Below are positions 2,852 to 38,619 of a DNA stretch of 40,835 nt, piece by piece; the first letter of the stretch is position 1, and each line of letters begins with the position of its first letter. A program made the position numbers and the translations under genes. The notes below the pieces were generated by a model that saw only the letters and a program-made list of their open reading frames with translations, was not told where the DNA came from and ran no database searches. The DNA comes from Phycisphaerales bacterium. Its GTDB lineage: Bacteria; Planctomycetota; Phycisphaerae; Phycisphaerales; UBA1924. The DNA lies in contig JAFIFZ010000082.1 in assembly GCA_020831775.1 (NCBI GenBank), positions 1 through 40,835 on the forward strand, read 5' to 3'.

Positions 2852-3631
2852 TCAGCAGCCCTGGGCGAACAGGTTCAGGAAGAGGAAGAAGTCGTCGGCG
2901 TCGATGACGCCGTCGTTGTTCATGTCGGCCCGGAGATCTCCTGCTGCAAAGAGCTGGAGGAAGAGGAAGAAGTCGTCCGCATCGACGACGCCGTCGCCGT
3001 TGAGGTCGGGGATGCAGACCGGCCCGCCCGGGGCGATTGCCAGGGCGCCGATGGTCCAGCCGAATGCGGTGCCGGCGTCATCGGTCAGCAGAATCGTGAT
3101 GAGGCCGCTGGCGTCGGCGGTCTGGCTGACGGCGTAGGAGTCGAGGGTGCGGCTGCTGTCGCCAACCTCGCCGTTGACAAACAGGATGCCCCCGCTGGCG
3201 ACCTGGTCGAAGATCACGGGCGAGCCGCCGCCCTGGATCTCGACGCGGTTGTTCATGGCGAACGCGCGGAGGCCGAAGACCCACAAGTTATAGGACTCAC
3301 CGGGAGTCAGGCCGCGGATCTCGGCCGTCATCGGGACGGTGCCGTAGTAGTAGTCGTCGACCCCGTCGAGCGGCTGGGTGTGCTGCGGGATGGTGGAGGG
3401 GTTGACAGGCCCCGCGAAGGACAAACCGACATCCATCGAGAACGCGTTGCCGGTCGGGGCGCCGCTTTCGTCGATCATGTTCGGGACAATGTAATCAGAG
3501 CCGACGAGCACATTCCAGTTATTGGGCGAGAACAGGCCGTTGGCGGCGTGCTCGAAATCGATCCCCATCATCTGGGCGCTCGCGCCGCCGGCGCCCATCA
3601 CGATCGCAGCCACGCATGCAATACCACGCAT
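2852..3631 (-). CDS. Secreted protein with Gly-Cys-type dockerin-like C-terminus
   Basis: A 259-residue exported protein. It has an N-terminal signal peptide (MRGIACVAAIVMGAGGASA), a beta-rich body of about 180 residues with no recognised domain, and a C-terminal pair of EF-hand/dockerin-like repeats with loops DLNGDGVVDADD and DMNNDGVIDADD, each followed by an FFLFL helix. The chain ends FAQGC. The same C-terminal module closes two proteins at 33994-36768, and a divergent version closes a third there. Such Gly-Cys-ended dockerin modules are known from planctomycetes and may serve anchoring or assembly; calcium binding is expected from the Asp/Asn-rich loops. The start has AGGAGG about 7 nt upstream. 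Confidence 0.85.
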   Translation of the reverse strand: MRGIACVAAIVMGAGGASAQMMGIDFEHAANGLFSPNNWNVLVGSDYIVPNMIDESGAPTGNAFSMDVGLSFAGPVNPSTIPQHTQPLDGVDDYYYGTVPMTAEIRGLTPGESYNLWVFGLRAFAMNNRVEIQGGGSPVIFDQVASGGILFVNGEVGDSSRTLDSYAVSQTADASGLITILLTDDAGTAFGWTIGALAIAPGGPVCIPDLNGDGVVDADDFFLFLQLFAAGDLRADMNNDGVIDADDFFLFLNLFAQGC

Positions 3632-3725
3632 CGCAAACCTCCTCTTTCAGTTTCTCAACGATCCACCACGAAGCTTGGCTGACGATTCCGGGCGTGTACA
3701 GGGCCCGGTCGCCGGCTCAGCAGCC

Positions 3726-13629: not shown

Positions 13630-15039
13630 TCAGTTGTCGCCGTCGCGGCCGAGGAGCTGCAGTGCGATCTCGAGGTCGTTGAGGGTTACCTTGCCGTCGA
13701 GGTCGAGGTCGGCGTCGAGTTCGCCTCTGGTGAACGCCTCGAAGAAGGCCTGGATGTCCAGCTCGCCGTCGGGGCCCCAGACGCCCGTCGCGCCCAGCGA
13801 GCGAGGTCCGGTCCCGAGCGTCGGCCTGCGCATCGGCACGAGGAGGAAGGCCCGGCGCTGCGCCTGCGCCGCGTTGCTTGCGCGATGCAGCCCGTAGCCG
13901 GCGATGTAGCCCCGGTTGTTCACGGCGGTCGCGGCCTGCAGGCGCCAGCCGGCGTTCGGCGCGATCAGGTCGTTCAGGTCGACCATCCGCCCGTTGCGCC
14001 ACAGGAAGGCGCGGGTCGTCATCTCGCCGCTGGCGTGGTCGAGCTCGCCCGAGCGGCCGACCACCATGCCGCGGTCGTTGACGCCCATCGCCTCGGAGAA
14101 GTTGTCGGTGTTGGCCAACCGTCCGAGCTCGCGCACCGTCAGGGCGTTGGGTGACCAGAGCACAGCTTCGACATCGCGCGGCCGAATCACCGGCAGCACC
14201 GATGGGCCCTCTTCAGAGGCGCCGACGATGACATTCGTCTCGCTCACCGCGTTTGCCCACGAGTCGGAGCTCGGCGAGATCCCCGTCAGACGCATCAGCT
14301 CGCCGGTGAAGGCGTGCCCGACGAACCCGATCCGCTGCGGATCACGCGTCGAGTTCGGTGGCTCAGACAGCTCGCTCCAGCCGACGACCGAGCCCCCGCG
14401 GTTGATGTCGTTCGCCTCGCTGTTGCGCCCGCCCAGCGTGCCGAGGTCGCGCAGGCGCCCGTCGAAGAAGACGAACGCGTGCCGATGCTGCGCGTTGCCG
14501 GTCTCGCTCCAGCCGACGACCATGCCCGGCTGGTTCACGCCCAGGGCCGCGTTCTGTCGCCCGCCCAGCGTGGGGATCGTCGAGAGGGGCCTGTCGCCGG
14601 TTCTGGCGAACGCGCGCAGGGGTTGGTCGGGCCCGCGCCTCGCCGCGCCGACGGTCGTGCCCAGGTCATTGATGTCAGAGGCGAAACCCGAGCCAGCAAA
14701 GCGGGGCAGCACGGGCGCGATCCCGTCGCTTCTGGTCCACACGAACGGGACCATCCGCCGATCGGTCGCGCTGGGCGAGGGCGCTTGGGCGGCGCCGACG
14801 ACCATCGCCCGATCGTTCATGCCCATCGCGTGCGAGATGCCCCGCTCCGAGCCCGTCAGCGTGCCAAGGTCGATCACCCGATAGACGACCGAGGGCCCGG
14901 GGTTCGGGCGGTTCGGGCCGGGCCGGTCGGTCAGTGGCTGGGCGGTGGCGGCGGTCGCCGCAACGAGCAGCCCCGCGGCTGCGCACGCAAAGCGCCGCCG
15001 CACCGATCGATGTCCGTGCCGGATCGCTGAAGTCGTCAT
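13630..15039 (-). CDS. Secreted HAF-repeat protein with EF-hand-like C-terminus
   Basis: A 469-residue exported protein. A basic signal peptide (MTTSAIRHGHRSVRRRFACAAAGLL, cleaved near TAATAQ) precedes at least six repeats of the HAF type, such as RDLGTLGGRNSEANDINRGG and GMVVGRSGELDHASG. Each combines a 'DLGTLGG' strand, a 'A-x-x-(I/V)N' strand and an 'VVG-x-(S/A)' strand, consistent with a beta-propeller. The C-terminus carries an EF-hand-like loop (DADLDLDGKVTLND) but ends LLGRDGDN, without the Gly-Cys seen in other secreted proteins here. The start at 15039 has GGAGGA 8 nt upstream. Function unknown. Confidence 0.82.
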   Translation of the reverse strand: MTTSAIRHGHRSVRRRFACAAAGLLVAATAATAQPLTDRPGPNRPNPGPSVVYRVIDLGTLTGSERGISHAMGMNDRAMVVGAAQAPSPSATDRRMVPFVWTRSDGIAPVLPRFAGSGFASDINDLGTTVGAARRGPDQPLRAFARTGDRPLSTIPTLGGRQNAALGVNQPGMVVGWSETGNAQHRHAFVFFDGRLRDLGTLGGRNSEANDINRGGSVVGWSELSEPPNSTRDPQRIGFVGHAFTGELMRLTGISPSSDSWANAVSETNVIVGASEEGPSVLPVIRPRDVEAVLWSPNALTVRELGRLANTDNFSEAMGVNDRGMVVGRSGELDHASGEMTTRAFLWRNGRMVDLNDLIAPNAGWRLQAATAVNNRGYIAGYGLHRASNAAQAQRRAFLLVPMRRPTLGTGPRSLGATGVWGPDGELDIQAFFEAFTRGELDADLDLDGKVTLNDLEIALQLLGRDGDN

Positions 15040-15215
15040 GATGTGTTCCTCCAAAACCGCGCAGCCGCGCCGTCGAGAAGCGACGGGTCGCGTGCGTTTC
15101 CACTCCGGAGCTCGGGTGACGGACCGAGCCCCACCCTTGCCTCCAGTATGACGCAAGGACCGGAAACAGAGTGCACCCAATCCGGAAAAATCCGCACAAT
15201 CAGGGGGTTATTTGG

Positions 15216-32585: not shown

Positions 32586-33656
32586 GTGGTCAAGCGCTGG
32601 TGGACGCCTTCGAGCAAGTCGCCGGCTCGGCTCGGTGAGTGGTTCTATCTGATGGACGGGGGTCCGTCGACCAACGACCTCGTCGCCTCGGGCGTCTTGG
32701 GCCCGCTCGACCCGATCGGCATGTCGCCGACGCTGCTTTCTGAAGACATCGAAGCGTTCACCGGCGCATGCATCGCCTGCGGTTGTTGGGATCCCAAAGG
32801 AGTCGCCGGCCCTTACGACCTTGAGGTCAATCCGCAAACCCTCAAGGGCAATCCGATCGATCGGCGGGTGCTCCGATACAAGACGATGGAACGCCCGATC
32901 GGGTCACCGACGCTCGTGGCCAAGCGGAGCCTGCTCGAAGCGATGGGGCCGGATGTGCCGGACCGGTGGCTGATCGGGCGCGTTCGTGTGCAGGGCGGCG
33001 GCGAGATCGACGAGCTCTGCACGATCATCGATCCCGAGTCTCTGTGGAAGCGTTTGCGGCCGGTGTTCACGCAGGGTTGGTTCAAGTACATCGGAAGTGC
33101 GACTTACGAGGCCTGCCGCGAGTGCGGGAGGCTGCTCGATCGGCCCGGCAGCCAGGCGTGGTATCTGCGTGCGCAGGAGGCCGCGGGCGAGAAGGCGTCG
33201 GCGGATGTCGCGATGCTCCTGGTCCCGTTGTCGGCGGTGGAGCGTGCCGAGCTGCGCGATCGGAAGCGTTGGCCCCGCCTGGACTCGCGCGACATCCCCG
33301 TCCGCGACGCGATCGTCGATCCGTACGGAACCCCGCTGCCGGTGTGGTGGGAGGAGTTCGACCATCATCAGCGGTCCTGCGGCGTCTCGCCGCCGTTCCC
33401 GAAGATTCCGATCGAGCCTGATGAGCCGGTCGGTTCGTGGCTTGAGGCGCAGATCGAAGAGCGCGGGTACCAGGCTTGCGTGCTGCTGGACGGCGAGGAT
33501 CTCGCCGAGCGGTGCGTGGTGTACGCGCACCTGTGGGCGTGCTGGGACGCGAAGGTCGCCCGGCGCATCGAAGGCCTGAACGACGCGAAGCTGGCCGACG
33601 CGATCCGCGTGAAGCTGCGGGATCGTTCGAGGAAAGACTGGCTGCCCGGATCTTGA
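32586..33656 (+). CDS. Unrecognised protein with two CXXCG motifs
   Basis: A 356-residue soluble protein. It contains two CXXCG motifs, C62-I-A-C65-G and C177-R-E-C180-G, about 115 residues apart, which may bind zinc. The arrangement vaguely recalls double-CXXCG immunity proteins described from Myxococcus (SitI6 type), but length and context differ and no toxin gene is adjacent. The tail is basic (KLRDRSRKDWLPG). GTG at 32586 has a GGAGGGG site upstream. It lies just downstream of repeat block C. I do not recognise the family with confidence. Confidence 0.6.
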   Translation: MVKRWWTPSSKSPARLGEWFYLMDGGPSTNDLVASGVLGPLDPIGMSPTLLSEDIEAFTGACIACGCWDPKGVAGPYDLEVNPQTLKGNPIDRRVLRYKTMERPIGSPTLVAKRSLLEAMGPDVPDRWLIGRVRVQGGGEIDELCTIIDPESLWKRLRPVFTQGWFKYIGSATYEACRECGRLLDRPGSQAWYLRAQEAAGEKASADVAMLLVPLSAVERAELRDRKRWPRLDSRDIPVRDAIVDPYGTPLPVWWEEFDHHQRSCGVSPPFPKIPIEPDEPVGSWLEAQIEERGYQACVLLDGEDLAERCVVYAHLWACWDAKVARRIEGLNDAKLADAIRVKLRDRSRKDWLPGS

Positions 33657-33993
33657 TAATCGAGCTCAGCTCCCGTCACCTCGCACAATCGTGCCGTTGT
33701 ACAGCGAATCAAGGCGGCCTGAGGACGGGTCTTTGTTCGGAAGCGGGATCGGGAAGCTGGGCGGCCCCCTCACCGGAGTTTCCGCTTGACTGCCTCGCTG
33801 TTTCCGGTATGTTGGTGCTTTCGTGGGTGGAGCGGGTGTTTTGCCCTTTCGTGGGGCGGCGCTTCAACCCCGGTTTGGCGCCCTCGCGAGATCCGGAGCC
33901 GCGACCTGCGGTTTTCGTCCCTCGTGGGGGTGTCGGTGTGTGCGCTGTGCGTTCTGCGGCCCCAAAGCGGCCGGGACGCGGAAGGAGATGATG
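33657..33993 (+). promoter_or_regulatory. Promoter and long leader of the first Gly-Cys dockerin paralog
   Basis: A 337-nt region. TTGACT (33786-33791) and TATGTT (33808-33813) are spaced 16 nt, a good sigma-70-like match, giving a leader of about 170 nt that is GC-rich and full of potential stems. AAGGAG at 33982-33987 is the ribosome site, followed by three consecutive ATG codons. No gene is seen. Confidence 0.6.
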
Positions 33994-34728
33994 ATGAGCG
34001 GTAAGAGCATTGCGGTTTTGGCGGCGGTCGGCCTGCTCGGGGGTGTCGCCTCCGCCCAGACGGGGTCGCTCACTACGGCCCCGGACAACAACAGCAGCGG
34101 CGGGATCTTCATGGATCTGACGGCGCTCGACGGCGCGCTGGCGATCACCTCGTTCGAGATCCCCTACGCGGGCACCGTCGGCACGCCCGTCGAGGTCGAG
34201 GTCTGGGTGCGCGACGGGAGCTACGAGGGCTTCGACGCCAGTTCCGCCGGCTGGACGCTCCACGAGACGGCCTTCGGCACCCGCCAGGGCGTCGGCGTGT
34301 TCGATCCCCTCGTCCTGGCCAACGAGATCGAGCTGGACACGAACCAGACCCGCGCCGTCTACCTGCACGCGATCACCGCCGGCGCCGGCCAGGGCATCCG
34401 CTACAGCGGGACCAACACCAACCCGCCGCAGACCTTTTGGAGCAATAACGACATCTCGCTGTTCAGCGATGTGTCGCGGACGGGCGGGGTGCCCTTCGCG
34501 GGCTCGCGGTTCACCCCGCGCACCTTCGCCGGCACGATCAACTACAACATCGGCGGCCCGACCTGCCGCCCGGACCTCAACGGCGACGGCGTCGTTGATG
34601 CGGATGACTTCTTCCTCTTCCTGCAGTACTTCGCCGCCGGTGACACGCGAGCCGACTTCAACAACGACGGCGTGATCGACGCGGACGATTTCTTCATCTT
34701 CCTCAATGAGTTTGCGCAGGGCTGCTGA
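33994..34728 (+). CDS. Secreted Gly-Cys dockerin protein, paralog 1
   Basis: A 244-residue exported protein. A signal peptide (MSGKSIAVLAAVGLLGGVASA) is followed by QTGSL, a beta-rich domain of about 165 residues with VEVEVWVRDGSY, AVYLHAITAG and NTNPPQTFW, then two EF-hand loops (DLNGDGVVDADD and DFNNDGVIDADD) each with an FF(L/I)FL helix, ending FAQGC. Three ATG codons occur in a row (33988, 33991, 33994); the third is best spaced from AAGGAG. It is first of three tandem paralogs, each with promoter and, for the first two, a terminator. The domain is unnamed to me; surface or extracellular function is inference. Confidence 0.85.
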   Translation: MSGKSIAVLAAVGLLGGVASAQTGSLTTAPDNNSSGGIFMDLTALDGALAITSFEIPYAGTVGTPVEVEVWVRDGSYEGFDASSAGWTLHETAFGTRQGVGVFDPLVLANEIELDTNQTRAVYLHAITAGAGQGIRYSGTNTNPPQTFWSNNDISLFSDVSRTGGVPFAGSRFTPRTFAGTINYNIGGPTCRPDLNGDGVVDADDFFLFLQYFAAGDTRADFNNDGVIDADDFFIFLNEFAQGC

Positions 34729-34753
34729 GCCCCGCCTGATTGCGACACCAATG

Positions 34754-34789
34754 CACCCCCGCCGGCGTTTCCGGCGGGGGTGTTTGTTT
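34754..34789 (+). terminator. Terminator of paralog 1
   Basis: Perfect 12-bp stem CACCCCCGCCGG/CCGGCGGGGGTG (34754-34765 and 34771-34782) with a CGTTT loop, followed by TTTGTTT. Confidence 0.92.
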
Positions 34790-34862
34790 CCGGTTCGCAT
34801 GACGAGCGTGCAGCGCGGCGCTTTCGCACGCGAATGATTCCGGAAATTCAGGTGGCTTTTTG

Positions 34863-34891
34863 TTGAGTGGGGGACGCTCGCGCGTTAATTT
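34863..34891 (+). promoter_or_regulatory. Promoter of paralog 2
   Basis: TTGAGT (34863-34868), 17-nt spacer, TAATTT (34886-34891). The leader of about 100 nt ends in AAGGAG, 8 nt before the ATG at 34998. Confidence 0.6.
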
Positions 34892-34997
34892 GGGTTGAGG
34901 ACGGCGCGGCAATCCGTTGCGCAAAGCCGAGCCGATGTTCCGCCGGGTTCGCCCCTGTGCGGGCGTCCGGGCATCCTCTGGCTGAAGGAGACAATCC

Positions 34998-35723
34998 ATG
35001 TTCCGCTCAGGTCATCGCTTCGGTGCGTCGATCGTCGGTCTGCTCTGCATCGCAGGGGCCGCGTCGGCTCAGACCGGTTCGCTGCAGACCGCCAACGCCA
35101 ACAACGGAAGCGGGGGGATCTTCCTCGAACTGACCGCGTTGATCGATCCGCTGTCCGTGACCGACTTCGAGTTGGTCTATTCCGGCACGACCGGCACTCC
35201 CGTCCAGGTCGAGGTCTGGACGCGACTGGGGAGCTACGCGGGGTTCGACGACGATCCAACGGCATGGACACTCACGCAGACAGTGCAGGGAACGCGCCAA
35301 GGCCCCAGCACCCTGGACACGCTGACGCTCACTGACCACATCGATCTGCCGGTCGGCCAGACCGTTTCGGTGTATCTGCACGCGGTGACCGCCGGCGGCG
35401 GCATCCGCTACACGGGCACCAACGCGAACCCGCCGCAGGTCCACTGGGACAACGCCGATCTGGCGCTCTTCAGCGATGTGTCGAGGACTGGTTCGGTTGC
35501 GTTCGCGAGCGCTCGCGTCACTCCGCGGACATTCGCCGGGGTGGTGCACTACGACATCGGCGGGCCGTCGATCTGTGACGCTGCCAGCTTCTTCGCCTTT
35601 CTGGCGGCGTTCGCGGCGGGCGATCCGAGAGCGGACTGCAACGCCGATGGAGTGATCGACGCCGACGACTTCTTCACATTCTTGGAGGGGTTTCGCCTTG
35701 GCACAAGTTGCTGCGGCTTCTGA
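34998..35723 (+). CDS. Secreted Gly-Cys dockerin protein, paralog 2 (diverged C-terminus)
   Basis: A 241-residue exported protein, clearly homologous to its two neighbours along the full beta-rich domain (QTGSL, VQVEVWTRLGSYAGFD, VYLHAVTAGGGIRYTGTNAN). The signal peptide is about 1-24. The C-terminal module is altered: the first EF-hand loop is missing its Asp-rich sequence (CDAASFFAFLAAFAAGD), only the second (DCNADGVIDADD) is intact, and the end is GTSCCGF rather than Gly-Cys. The start follows AAGGAG. It may have lost the sorting or calcium function of the module, or carry a variant of it. Confidence 0.83.
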   Translation: MFRSGHRFGASIVGLLCIAGAASAQTGSLQTANANNGSGGIFLELTALIDPLSVTDFELVYSGTTGTPVQVEVWTRLGSYAGFDDDPTAWTLTQTVQGTRQGPSTLDTLTLTDHIDLPVGQTVSVYLHAVTAGGGIRYTGTNANPPQVHWDNADLALFSDVSRTGSVAFASARVTPRTFAGVVHYDIGGPSICDAASFFAFLAAFAAGDPRADCNADGVIDADDFFTFLEGFRLGTSCCGF

Positions 35724-35846
35724 ACGCCGGGCAGCGGCTTGCTCGGCCTTGTTCGACTGGAATGCATGGCCTGCGTGAGCGGCACTCGGCGATCGGTGGG
35801 GTCCGCCTTCGGCTGCTGAGCCACACCCGATCAACGCAAGAACAAC

Positions 35847-35882
35847 CGTCGCCGGTCTCCGTGACCGGCGGCGTTTCTCTTT
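35847..35882 (+). terminator. Terminator of paralog 2
   Basis: 11-bp stem CGTCGCCGGTC/GACCGGCGGCG with one G-U pair and a TCCGT loop, followed by TTTCTCTTT. Confidence 0.9.
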
Positions 35883-35912
35883 GGAATCGAGGCCGAACGC
35901 CCCTGGCGGGCC

Positions 35913-35940
35913 TTGACACATCGGGAGATCCGGTTAGGTT
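35913..35940 (+). promoter_or_regulatory. Promoter of paralog 3
   Basis: Consensus TTGACA (35913-35918), 16-nt spacer, TAGGTT (35935-35940). The leader is about 90 nt and GC-rich. Confidence 0.65.
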
Positions 35941-36033
35941 GGGCAGATCGCGTCGGGCCGCACTGCGGACCGGCCTGTGGTGTGTTGCGCCGCAGCGGAC
36001 GCCCCGGGGTTGGGCCGGTAAGGAGAGTTGATC

Positions 36034-36768
36034 GTGGCTGTTTGTGATCGTTGGTTGAGGATCGGTTGTGTTGTGCTCGCTGGACTTGGCACTGCCGCCT
36101 CGGCGCAGACCGGCTCGCTGGAGACGACGGGCAACAACAACGGCAGCGGCGGGGTCTTCATGGATCTCTCCCCGTTCTCGAATCTGCTTTCGATCACCGA
36201 GTTCGAGGTCGCGTTCTCCGGCACTTCCGGTTCGACGGTCGATGTCGAGGTCTGGGTCCGCCCGGGCAGCTATGTCGGCTTCGACGCGAGCAGAGAGGGA
36301 TGGACGCTCGCCGAAACGGTCCAGGGCGTCAGGCGGGGCACGAACACGCTCTCGTCGCTCACGCTCAACGATCCCGTGGAGGTCGAGCCGGGCGTGACCA
36401 CCGCGATCTACCTGCACGCCGTGACTTCCGGAGGCGGGATCAGATACAACGGCACCAACGCCAACCCGCCCCAGACGACTTGGACCAACGCCGATCTGGA
36501 ACTCTTCTCAGACCGTGCCAGGACGGGTGATATCCCTTTCGGCAGCTCGCTCTTCATGCCCCGGACCTTCTCGGGCGTGATCCACTATCAGCTCGGGGCC
36601 TTCTGCCGCCCGGATCTGAACGGTGACGAGGTGCTCGATGCGGAAGACTTCTTCCTGTTCCTGCAGTACTTTGAGGCGGGCGATCCGCGTGCGGACTTCA
36701 ACAACGATGGTGTGATCGACGCGAACGATTTCTTTATCTTCCTGAACGAGTTCCACTTGGGCTGCTGA
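36034..36768 (+). CDS. Secreted Gly-Cys dockerin protein, paralog 3
   Basis: A 244-residue exported protein, exactly as long as paralog 1. The signal peptide is MAVCDRWLRIGCVVLAGLG-TAASA, then QTGSLETTG, the shared beta-rich domain (VDVEVWVRPGSYVGFD, AIYLHAVTSGGGIRYNGTN, NPPQTTWTNADL) and two EF-hand loops (DLNGDEVLDAED and DFNNDGVIDAND), ending FHLGC. GTG at 36034 is chosen since AAGGAG (36020-36025) is 8 nt upstream; TTG at 36028 would be too close. No clear terminator follows before the promoter of the next regulator gene. Confidence 0.85.
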   Translation: MAVCDRWLRIGCVVLAGLGTAASAQTGSLETTGNNNGSGGVFMDLSPFSNLLSITEFEVAFSGTSGSTVDVEVWVRPGSYVGFDASREGWTLAETVQGVRRGTNTLSSLTLNDPVEVEPGVTTAIYLHAVTSGGGIRYNGTNANPPQTTWTNADLELFSDRARTGDIPFGSSLFMPRTFSGVIHYQLGAFCRPDLNGDEVLDAEDFFLFLQYFEAGDPRADFNNDGVIDANDFFIFLNEFHLGC

Positions 36769-36834: not shown

Positions 36835-36862
36835 TTTCCGACCGGCGCATGCCTGCTATACT
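36835..36862 (+). promoter_or_regulatory. Promoter of the first LuxR-type regulator
   Basis: TTTCCG (36835-36840), 16-nt spacer, TATACT (36857-36862) with an extended -10 TG one base upstream (TGCTATACT). The predicted start site near 36869 excludes the in-frame ATG at 36849. Confidence 0.6.
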
Positions 36863-36926
36863 GGGATCGACGGAGTCTGTTTGGTGTCGCTCGGCCCAGG
36901 GCCATCTGACCGCGCGGAGCCATCGA

Positions 36927-37679
36927 TTGGATCCCTCACCGGCGCCAACTGGAATCGATCACGAGAAGATCGGCGGGCTCGCCGGCCTCGATCCTGTCGC
37001 GCTCTGGTCGGCGTTGGTGTCCGACGCTGGCCTGGCGGCCTTTGTCTGCGACGAGCACGGGATCATCCGCTACGCGAACCGGCGTCTGACGCGTCCGCTG
37101 CGCGAGCGGTCGGTGGTGGGGCGCCACTTCGACGCGGTCTTCGGCCCCGAGACGGCGCCGTACATCCGCGAGTGCCTCCACCGGACAGGCCGGACGCCCC
37201 GAGCGGTGGCGTACGAGGGGATGTTCAACGGCGTGGAGGTGCTCGGCGTCTTCCGGCGCGTCAGCCTCGAAGGTGCGAAGCCCAGCCTCACCCTCGGCAT
37301 GTTCCGTCGCCGCCTGGACATGACGCCCGAAGACTGGGCGAGCCACCTGGACAGCTCTTCGATCGTGCGCGGCCACCGCGACCTCGGTCTGCTCGCCAGC
37401 CTCCGCCCGCGCGAGCGGGAGGTGCTGGGGATGATCGGCGACGGGCTCACGGCTTCGGAGATCGGCCAGGGCCTCGGCATCAGCCAAAAGACCGTCGAGT
37501 GGTACCGGGCGCAGATCGGCCACAAGCTCGGTGTCCGTTCGCGGGCTGAGCTGATCCGGGTCGCGATCGGCGCCGGTCTGACCTCCGTCCCGAGGTGGCC
37601 ACCCAAAGAGGTGCCCGAGCAGGACGGCCCCACAATCAGAGATGGGGAGGAAGGCGGCCCGCCGCAGAAACAGGGATAG
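36927..37679 (+). CDS. LuxR-type regulator with PAS-like sensor, 1
   Basis: A 250-residue transcription regulator. Residues about 22-130 look PAS-like (LAAFVCDEHGIIRYANRRL, VGRHFDAVFG), a small-molecule or protein-interaction sensor. The LuxR/GerE helix-turn-helix is at about 158-215 (LRPREREVLGMIGDGLTASE, GLGISQKTVEWYRAQIGHKL). TTG at 36927 is chosen because GGAG lies 7 nt upstream and the promoter at 36835-36862 is upstream of it. It follows the dockerin paralogs and precedes a second regulator of the same kind. Targets are unknown; the neighbouring secreted genes are candidates. Confidence 0.85.
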   Translation: MDPSPAPTGIDHEKIGGLAGLDPVALWSALVSDAGLAAFVCDEHGIIRYANRRLTRPLRERSVVGRHFDAVFGPETAPYIRECLHRTGRTPRAVAYEGMFNGVEVLGVFRRVSLEGAKPSLTLGMFRRRLDMTPEDWASHLDSSSIVRGHRDLGLLASLRPREREVLGMIGDGLTASEIGQGLGISQKTVEWYRAQIGHKLGVRSRAELIRVAIGAGLTSVPRWPPKEVPEQDGPTIRDGEEGGPPQKQG

Positions 37680-37821: not shown

Positions 37822-38619
37822 ATGCACTCGGATGATGCTGACGAACCTGCCGCGAACCAACCCGCCGCCGAGCCCCGCTGGTCTCCCCTGGAGCAGCCGG
37901 GTTTGGACAGCGCCTTTATCTGGGACACGCTCTGTGATCTGTACTTTGTCCGCATCACGGTCCTCTCGACCGACGGGCGTGTCGTGTTCGCCGACGATCG
38001 CGTCGAGGCCCGCTACGCCGAGCCCGGCGGATCGGTGGTCGGCAAGCAGTTGAGCGACTTCGTCGAGCCGAAGCTCGCGTTGGAACTCGTCAAGATCGCG
38101 CGCGATGTCGTCCGATCCGAGAAGCCCGTCATCGTCCAGTGGGTCGCCAAAGGTGTCGGCATCTGTTCATCGGTCCGCTCCCTTCCGGGGAGCTGGCGGG
38201 GCCAGCGGCTTGTGCTCGTCGCCTCCCACGACAAGGTTTGCGGCGCCCAGTCGCCGCCCGTCGACGGGGAGCTGCGCGTGATCCGGCCCGTGGCCCGGGA
38301 CCTCGGCCCGCTCGGCGTGCTGACCCGACGCGAGCTGCAGATTCTCGCCCTCATCGCCGACGGGATGACCTCCGCCCAGATCGCAGAGCGCCTGGCGCGG
38401 AGCGTCAAGACGGTCGAGTGGCACCGCATCTCGATCGGGCAGAAGCTCGGCCTGAAGTCCCGCATCGATCTGGCCCACATCGGGCTGATCGCGGGCATCG
38501 GGGGGGACCTGGAGCGGATCCGGGAGGCCGCCGGGTTTTCTACACCCGACGACGCGTCCGACAGCGGCGACCTGCCCGGGAACGCCGGCCGTCCAACGCC
38601 GAGCGGAACGCCCGGCTGA
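37822..38619 (+). CDS. LuxR-type regulator with PAS-like sensor, 2
   Basis: A 265-residue transcription regulator. An N-terminal acidic stretch (1-25) precedes a PAS-like domain at about 33-140 (DLYFVRITVLSTDGRVVFAD, VVGKQLSDFVEP, a common PAS helix). The LuxR/GerE DNA-binding domain is at about 166-222 (LTRRELQILALIADGMTSAQ, LARSVKTVEWHRISIGQKL). Both regulators share the unusual KTVEW(Y/H)R recognition-helix sequence. GGGAG 7 nt upstream sets the start. The HAD phosphatase gene begins 22 nt downstream with its own -10 box. Confidence 0.86.
   Translation: MHSDDADEPAANQPAAEPRWSPLEQPGLDSAFIWDTLCDLYFVRITVLSTDGRVVFADDRVEARYAEPGGSVVGKQLSDFVEPKLALELVKIARDVVRSEKPVIVQWVAKGVGICSSVRSLPGSWRGQRLVLVASHDKVCGAQSPPVDGELRVIRPVARDLGPLGVLTRRELQILALIADGMTSAQIAERLARSVKTVEWHRISIGQKLGLKSRIDLAHIGLIAGIGGDLERIREAAGFSTPDDASDSGDLPGNAGRPTPSGTPG

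Follow-up and report, generated by a model that had tools for sequence, protein, structure and literature searches.

We studied three consecutive genes on the plus strand of a 40,835-nt stretch of DNA from a Phycisphaerales bacterium (GenBank assembly GCA_020831775.1, contig JAFIFZ010000082.1; "the window" refers to this whole stretch). Each encodes a signal peptide, a domain of about 165 amino acids (aa) and a dockerin-like tail of the so-called GC type. A preliminary description had regarded them as three adjacent paralogs of 241-244 residues. This is borne out by the open-reading-frame listing, with copies 2 and 3 being 62% and 63% identical to copy 1 over the full length, or 62% and 56% when the comparison is confined to the domain. 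The trio is real, yet it is ordinary for its genome, i.e., one of many such gene groups. Export by signal peptide, dockerin tails and the tandem order are likewise supported by sequence signals, where the putative signal peptides, all ending in ASA-Q, were judged by eye. For copy 3, an AAGGAG ribosome-binding sequence lies 8 nt from the GTG at 36034 and 2 nt from the alternative TTG at 36028, a position that is CTG in one of two congeneric genomes (G001, G002) used below, namely in G002. The GTG is therefore the likelier start. All coordinates are collected in Table 1.

Table 1. Features of the three-gene locus (positions in the window).
Feature	Coordinates	Strand	Remark
Copy 1	33994..34728	+	244 aa; signal peptide, PHR-like domain (predicted), intact GC-type dockerin tail
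Predicted PHR/lectin-like beta-sandwich domain of copy 1, ~165 aa	34057..34554	+	profile matches, predicted model
GC-type dockerin of copy 1, Gly-Cys end	34564..34725	+	NF041540
Copy 2	34998..35723	+	241 aa; architecture as copy 1, dockerin tail degenerate
Predicted PHR/lectin-like domain of copy 2	35070..35561	+	profile matches
Degenerate GC-type dockerin of copy 2	35571..35702	+	NF041540
Copy 3	36034..36768	+	244 aa from GTG, intact GC tail; alternative TTG at 36028 gives 246 aa
Predicted PHR/lectin-like domain of copy 3	36106..36597	+	profile matches
GC-type dockerin of copy 3, Gly-Cys end	36604..36765	+	NF041540
Promoter-like site, copy 1	33786..33815	+	TTGACT-16-TATGTT-GG; one change in -35 in G001
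Promoter-like site, copy 2	34863..34893	+	TTGAGT-17-TAATTT-GG
Promoter-like site, copy 3	35913..35942	+	TTGACA-16-TAGGTT-GG; G001 and G002 keep -35, their -10 is TAGTTT
Intrinsic-terminator-like hairpin after copy 1	34753..34783	+	terminator scan
Intrinsic-terminator-like hairpin after copy 2	35847..35873	+	terminator scan; corresponding stretch follows copy 1 in G001 and G002
12-bp direct repeat GGCTGCTGAGCC, left edge of segment absent from congeners, end of copy 1	34720..34731	+	
12-bp direct repeat GGCTGCTGAGCC, right edge of absent segment	35811..35822	+	
Tract near-identical to G002, ending inside copy 1 dockerin	33648..34622	+	1 difference in 975 nt

First, we compared the tails with the NCBIfam model NF041540 (GC-type dockerin domain-anchored protein; curated cut-off 29 bits). 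Copies 1, 2 and 3 score 64.2, 43.7 and 62.2 bits, respectively. Copies 1 and 3 carry both EF-hand Ca loops and end in Gly-Cys, while copy 2 is without the first loop and ends in TSCCGF instead. That is, the EF-hand C-termini with terminal Gly-Cys that had been assigned to all three proteins are found in copies 1 and 3 and not in copy 2. The trio thus resembles the proteins of this family in its tails, all above the cut-off and two of them with the Gly-Cys end, but differs from them in the incomplete tail of copy 2 and in an N-terminal domain that bears no family name. Past the stop codon of copy 2, the reading frame continues without interruption for 31 codons (35724-35819, plus strand) and leads to a Gly-Cys-stop at 35811-35819, which looks as if the original end of the tail were further downstream.

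The tag is abundant. The genome itself holds 120 NF041540 matches, 119 of them above the cut-off, and 46 of 61 genomes (this one included) carry the tag, 42 above the cut-off; here, about 81 candidates were scored per genome such that high per-genome counts are lower bounds. Among 45 tags retrieved by a regular expression from the examined stretches of the trio's own genome, a set outside of which copies 2 and 3 fall, 43 end exactly at the GC and 2 one residue later. In the open-licence literature, we found no paper on 'GC-type dockerin'. Two further genes of the window are related by their tails: another GC-type dockerin protein, the fourth in the window, whose N-terminal part differs (2852-3631, minus strand; 64.9 bits), and a HAF-repeat protein whose degenerate dockerin tail stays under the cut-off (13630-15180, minus strand; 16.9 vs. 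29 bits).

Next, we investigated the ~165-aa domain, which is named by no Pfam or NCBIfam model in scans of the trio and 29 members. When AlphaFold2 was given only the three full-length proteins, the model was poor (predicted local distance difference test, pLDDT, of 56) and was not used for the fold search. The domain model based on 29 sequences reaches a pLDDT of 93.7 and a predicted template modelling score of 0.90 and consists of strands only. The characterization as an unnamed beta-rich domain is thereby upheld, and the domain does not turn out to be a well-known family that ordinarily occurs in single copies, given that it is unnamed and has 24 matches in the genome (profile search). Foldseek reports three matches with E<=0.001, at ranks 1-3, and all are PHR domains (BTBD2, MYCBP2). 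VIA-align superposes the predicted model onto PHR domains with Z 11.6, 9.9 and 9.8, where the top alignment covers 140 residues (target 157) at a root-mean-square deviation of 3.0, and onto the lectin-like domain of Cwp84 from Clostridioides difficile with Z 10.1. Below these, carbohydrate esterases and carbohydrate-binding modules score about 6-7.7, values at which the tool cautions about common arrangements.

The sequence-based comparisons point in the same direction, i.e., the best match of the domain's sequence profile in the PDB is a PHR domain (E 0.02), and one of the 29 members, none of the trio, matches the Pfam PHR model PF08005 over most of its length (E 0.022, 15.7 bits). Since another member matches an unrelated family at E 0.0037, this signal is weak when taken alone. 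The A2 profile gave nothing meaningful against the PDB, and a search for more PHR sequences yielded 5 matches, of which the sole PHR domain was 3hwj itself. We read the domain as a PHR/Cwp84-like fold based on the predicted model, and common descent with PHR is plausible. PHR domains are the closest solved fold, first by both Foldseek and VIA-align and with agreeing weak sequence matches. The difference is that no member attains the Pfam cut-off and that the trio comes from a bacterium and is probably exported, in contrast to PHR proteins, which a passage of PMC4806438 terms intracellular signalling hubs. For Cwp84, passages of the structural report (PMC4089489) describe the lectin-like domain as a beta-sandwich of ~170 aa adjacent to a surface protease, name MYCBP2 as structural relative (DALI Z 9.5) and leave its function open. 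The trio would share this fold but has no protease domain in its chain, in contrast to paralogs from its own genome, and uses a different anchor.

These paralogs are long proteins. All four that were scanned from the genome show a trypsin-like peptidase domain above the cut-off and 2-3 matched stretches of the ~165-aa domain each. Short relatives combine a signal peptide and the same domain with a PEP-CTERM-like tail, and 4 of 5 scanned pass TIGR02595, although the gene from the trio's own genome (on contig C42) does so marginally (16.3 vs. a cut-off of 16 bits). Such single-domain proteins, known here from Armatimonadota and Planctomycetota, correspond to the trio in signal peptide and domain but have a PEP-CTERM tail where the trio has its GC dockerin; no PEP-CTERM tail was found for the trio in the NCBIfam scan. 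Here the domain is joined to GC tails, in other lineages to PEP-CTERM tails, which suggests that both tails do a similar job. Scanning named genomes, we obtained 18 domain loci, in records titled as Phycisphaerales, further Planctomycetota, Armatimonadota, Acidobacteria and, once, Bacteroidales. The record WYBR01000096.1, titled Vicinamibacteraceae, is probably from a planctomycete and was not counted as a further phylum. None of the titles or abstract openings listed by our searches of the open-licence literature concerned this domain or its tandem arrays.

With regard to expression, a leader pattern TTGANN-16/17-TANNTTGG has exactly three matches in the window, one before each gene, and none in shuffles. 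Since the trio itself served to define the pattern, these three matches are circular, while the sites on contigs C79 and C80 are not. Genome-wide, it matches 7 times in 3.55 Mb (5 and 2 on the two strands), compared to 1 and 1 for the backwards pattern. Of the four matches outside the trio, one (C79:6921) lies ahead of another domain gene, and a further domain gene on C80 is preceded by a related site that lacks the final GG. A looser form stands before 4 of the 39 GC-dockerin genes checked (3 of them in an array on C39) and before none on the opposite strand. Most GC-dockerin genes are thus without this exact site. The preliminary description had given each gene its own promoter: the pattern agrees with this for all three, but a general sigma-70 scan sees copy 1's alone (1 found, 0.4 expected).

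The terminators ascribed to the first two genes were recovered as hairpins followed by T-runs; none is listed by the terminator scan after copy 3. In total, the region shows 8 terminator-like sites vs. 2.9 in shuffles. The same holds on a larger scale, i.e., 25 of 45 GC-dockerin genes have a terminator-like hairpin within 150 nt vs. 0 in shuffles, where the control is one mononucleotide shuffle per gene. Judged by these signals, the three genes are likely separate transcription units. Since their promoter-like sites are of one type, they are probably expressed in parallel, and a differing control is not supported. That is, from the idea of a separately controlled set, the separate units are retained and the different regulation is not. 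We also considered the leader of copy 1 as a candidate for a structured RNA, which was rejected (folding z-score -0.51, no second copy in the genome, no Rfam match there; the window's Rfam matches are two tRNAs only). Directly downstream of copy 3, two adjacent LuxR/GerE-type regulators are encoded (36849-37679 and 37822-38619, plus strand). The second has a weak PAS match, and the stretch of both is also found in G001 and G002.

We then evaluated how the trio compares to the remainder of its genome. From the 119 GC-dockerin matches above the cut-off, 85 lie within 4 kb of another one, while random placement gives 28 (standard deviation 6, largest value 58 in 2000 draws). For 82 of these 85, such a neighbour is on the same strand. 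The random placement takes no account of contig breaks or gene positions, and the 120th match was left out. Further paralog arrays are found on C39 (four genes, 52-74% identical), on C66 (four genes, 44-78%) and on C81, where a tandem triplet (75500-83500; 274, 274 and 283 aa; 75-84% identical) encodes a distantly related form of the domain and has a terminator-like hairpin behind each gene. Given this clustering and these additional sets of three or four paralogs, a view of the trio as exceptional is weakened. On C17 (112000-129000), seven GC-dockerin matches stand in a row on one strand, with frames of 567-697 aa that are 1.7-2.0 kb apart.

For 42 tags (the 45 from above minus two not ending in GC and one from a frame below 150 aa), the mean DNA identity is 82.7%, while just 72 of 861 cargo pairs show a BLAST match. 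Codon agreement at shared tag residues is 72% vs. 58.5% expected from the codon usage of the cargo. This points to a recent common origin or to exchange of the tag DNA, the two of which are not separated by these values.

Finally, we compared the locus with its counterparts in the genus. Copy 2 is present in one of the three genus genomes searched, while G001 and G002 have copies 1 and 3 only; their contigs run through the site, with that of G001 starting inside copy 1. The segment they are missing measures ~1.09 kb and is bordered in our window by the direct repeat GGCTGCTGAGCC, which has 3 matches in the window vs. 0.01 expected. The junction in the congeners is GGCTGCTGAGCC with one base different. 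Both a loss of copy 2 in the congeners' ancestor and a gain in the genome studied here are possible. The third GGCTGCTGAGCC is located at 3714-3725 (minus strand), upstream of the dockerin gene at 2852-3631, and may be left over from a neighbour that was lost.

A second irregularity concerns copy 1. Outside the near-identical tract (Table 1), other 250-nt windows of the region shared with G002 are 71-98% identical. Within the tag of copy 1, the first 59 nt are identical to G002 (59/59), but the last 106 tag nt of G002 agree better with G001 (101/106) than with the trio's genome (91/106). This looks like a replacement of the cargo of copy 1 with a breakpoint inside the tag. A phylogeny of 53 domains offers no support for grouping the three copies as a clade, nor does it reject such a clade (approximately unbiased test, p = 0.316), and copy 3 groups with the paralogs on C79 and C80 (support 95/86). 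The proposed local triplication is weakened as an event, since the tree does not recover the trio as a clade and the two congeners carry only copies 1 and 3 at this site.

Taken together, we lean towards reading the trio as small, exported and surface-displayed non-catalytic binding modules on a common tag, within an array that is changed by recombination. The proteins would be exported via Sec by their N-terminal signal peptide, with cleavage near ASA-Q, and the ~165-aa region is predicted to fold into a PHR/Cwp84-lectin-like beta-sandwich. This domain would bind a ligand, as we infer from its fold class and from its place beside the catalytic domain in the trypsin-like proteins of the genome. 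The GC-type tail, which is highly conserved over dozens of cargos, would fold on Ca2+ and attach the proteins to the cell surface through a shared receptor, presumably other than a recognisable Pfam cohesin. Based on sequence signals only, each gene would form its own transcription unit with the same kind of promoter and probably be expressed together with the others. Copy 2 is probably poorly anchored or released, its tag being damaged. Recombination, aided by similar tag DNA, may enlarge or reduce such arrays and swap their cargo.

Several observations weigh against this interpretation or parts of it. The damaged tag of copy 2 is at odds with all three proteins being anchored alike. The distribution of the domain is patchy (11 of 61 genomes, the trio's included), i.e., the tag system does not need it, and four long domain proteins scanned from other genomes have no peptidase. 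In the same VIA-align list, a phage baseplate protein (Z 10.2) and a virus capsid protein (Z 9.5) score likewise, and the shared fold therefore shows no function. The best PF08005 score is 15.7 bits vs. a cut-off of 23.6, which no member reaches, and PF08005 is unmatched in 294 genomes of the phylum, where controls were equally silent such that absence is not shown. Furthermore, the near-identical tract could possibly be a mis-assembly, as G002 is metagenome-assembled.

The array may also be a neutral by-product of recombination, with copy 2 decaying and the copy number being without biological meaning. We regard this as possible, albeit doubtful. It agrees with the presence of copy 2, tag damaged, in a single genus genome and with breakpoints at or in tag DNA, but the domain of copy 2 is fully open and still 62% identical to that of copy 1, and the gene keeps its promoter-like site and ribosome-binding sequence. 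A role of the trio as protease partner of the genome's trypsin-like proteins appears unlikely to us. These four proteins do carry the same domain in several stretches, and the Cwp84 domain contacts its protease and propeptide according to a passage of PMC4089489, but trio and trypsin-like genes are on different contigs.

In the same low range, we see the idea of covalent sorting by means of the GC end, where a dedicated enzyme would join the terminal Cys to a lipid, polymer or protein. This likens the end to exosortase/PEP-CTERM sorting rather than to dockerin-cohesin binding. The exact Gly-Cys end of 43 of 45 tags fits, as do the PEP-CTERM tails combined with the same domain elsewhere (and marginally in the C42 gene) and the 5 PEP-CTERM and 2 exosortase matches in the genome. 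On the other hand, the GC tag reads as having neither transmembrane helix nor basic cluster, and most tags also start with Cys, which allows for a simple disulfide.

The most improbable alternative is a cellulosome-like assembly, where the tails as true dockerins plug their proteins into a cohesin scaffold beside secreted enzymes. On the Pfam model of the cellulosomal type I dockerin (Dockerin_1, PF00404; cut-off 22.9 bits), copy 1 reaches 29.5 bits and copy 3 22.6 as protein and 24.6 in the genome search, while the Pfam scan gives no match for copy 2. The likeness lies in the EF-hand repeats, the difference in the terminal Gly-Cys and in the cohesin: the Pfam model PF00963 matches nothing in the trio's genome (95% complete) at E<=1, nor in the congeners at E<=0.01. 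A 'planctosome' of cohesin/dockerin proteins without cellulases has been proposed for freshwater Planctomycetes in a passage of PMC6461901, and 4 of the 5 cohesin-bearing genomes also have a GC-tag match. These are, however, only 5 of 61 genomes compared to 46 with the tag (42 above the cut-off), and a cellulosome-like partner is thus unlikely here, although a cohesin may be too distant for Pfam.

Returning to tagged, surface-displayed binding modules, three testable points reach beyond this locus. First, an unnamed bacterial domain is predicted to fold like the PHR domains of eukaryotes. Second, the tag, matched about 120 times in a single genome, probably has a receptor that is not a cohesin. 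Third, the surface repertoire of the organism may change by recombination in the DNA of this tag. We tentatively extend the last point to a cassette system for the cell surface in which the dockerin coding DNA is a shared recombination handle, a conjecture we hold with little confidence. If true, the ~120 similar tags would allow cargo genes and their promoters to undergo tandem duplication, deletion and exchange between lineages with an unchanging anchor, and the trio would show two such events, i.e., the loss or gain of copy 2 between two gene ends and the replacement of the cargo of copy 1 with a breakpoint inside the tag.

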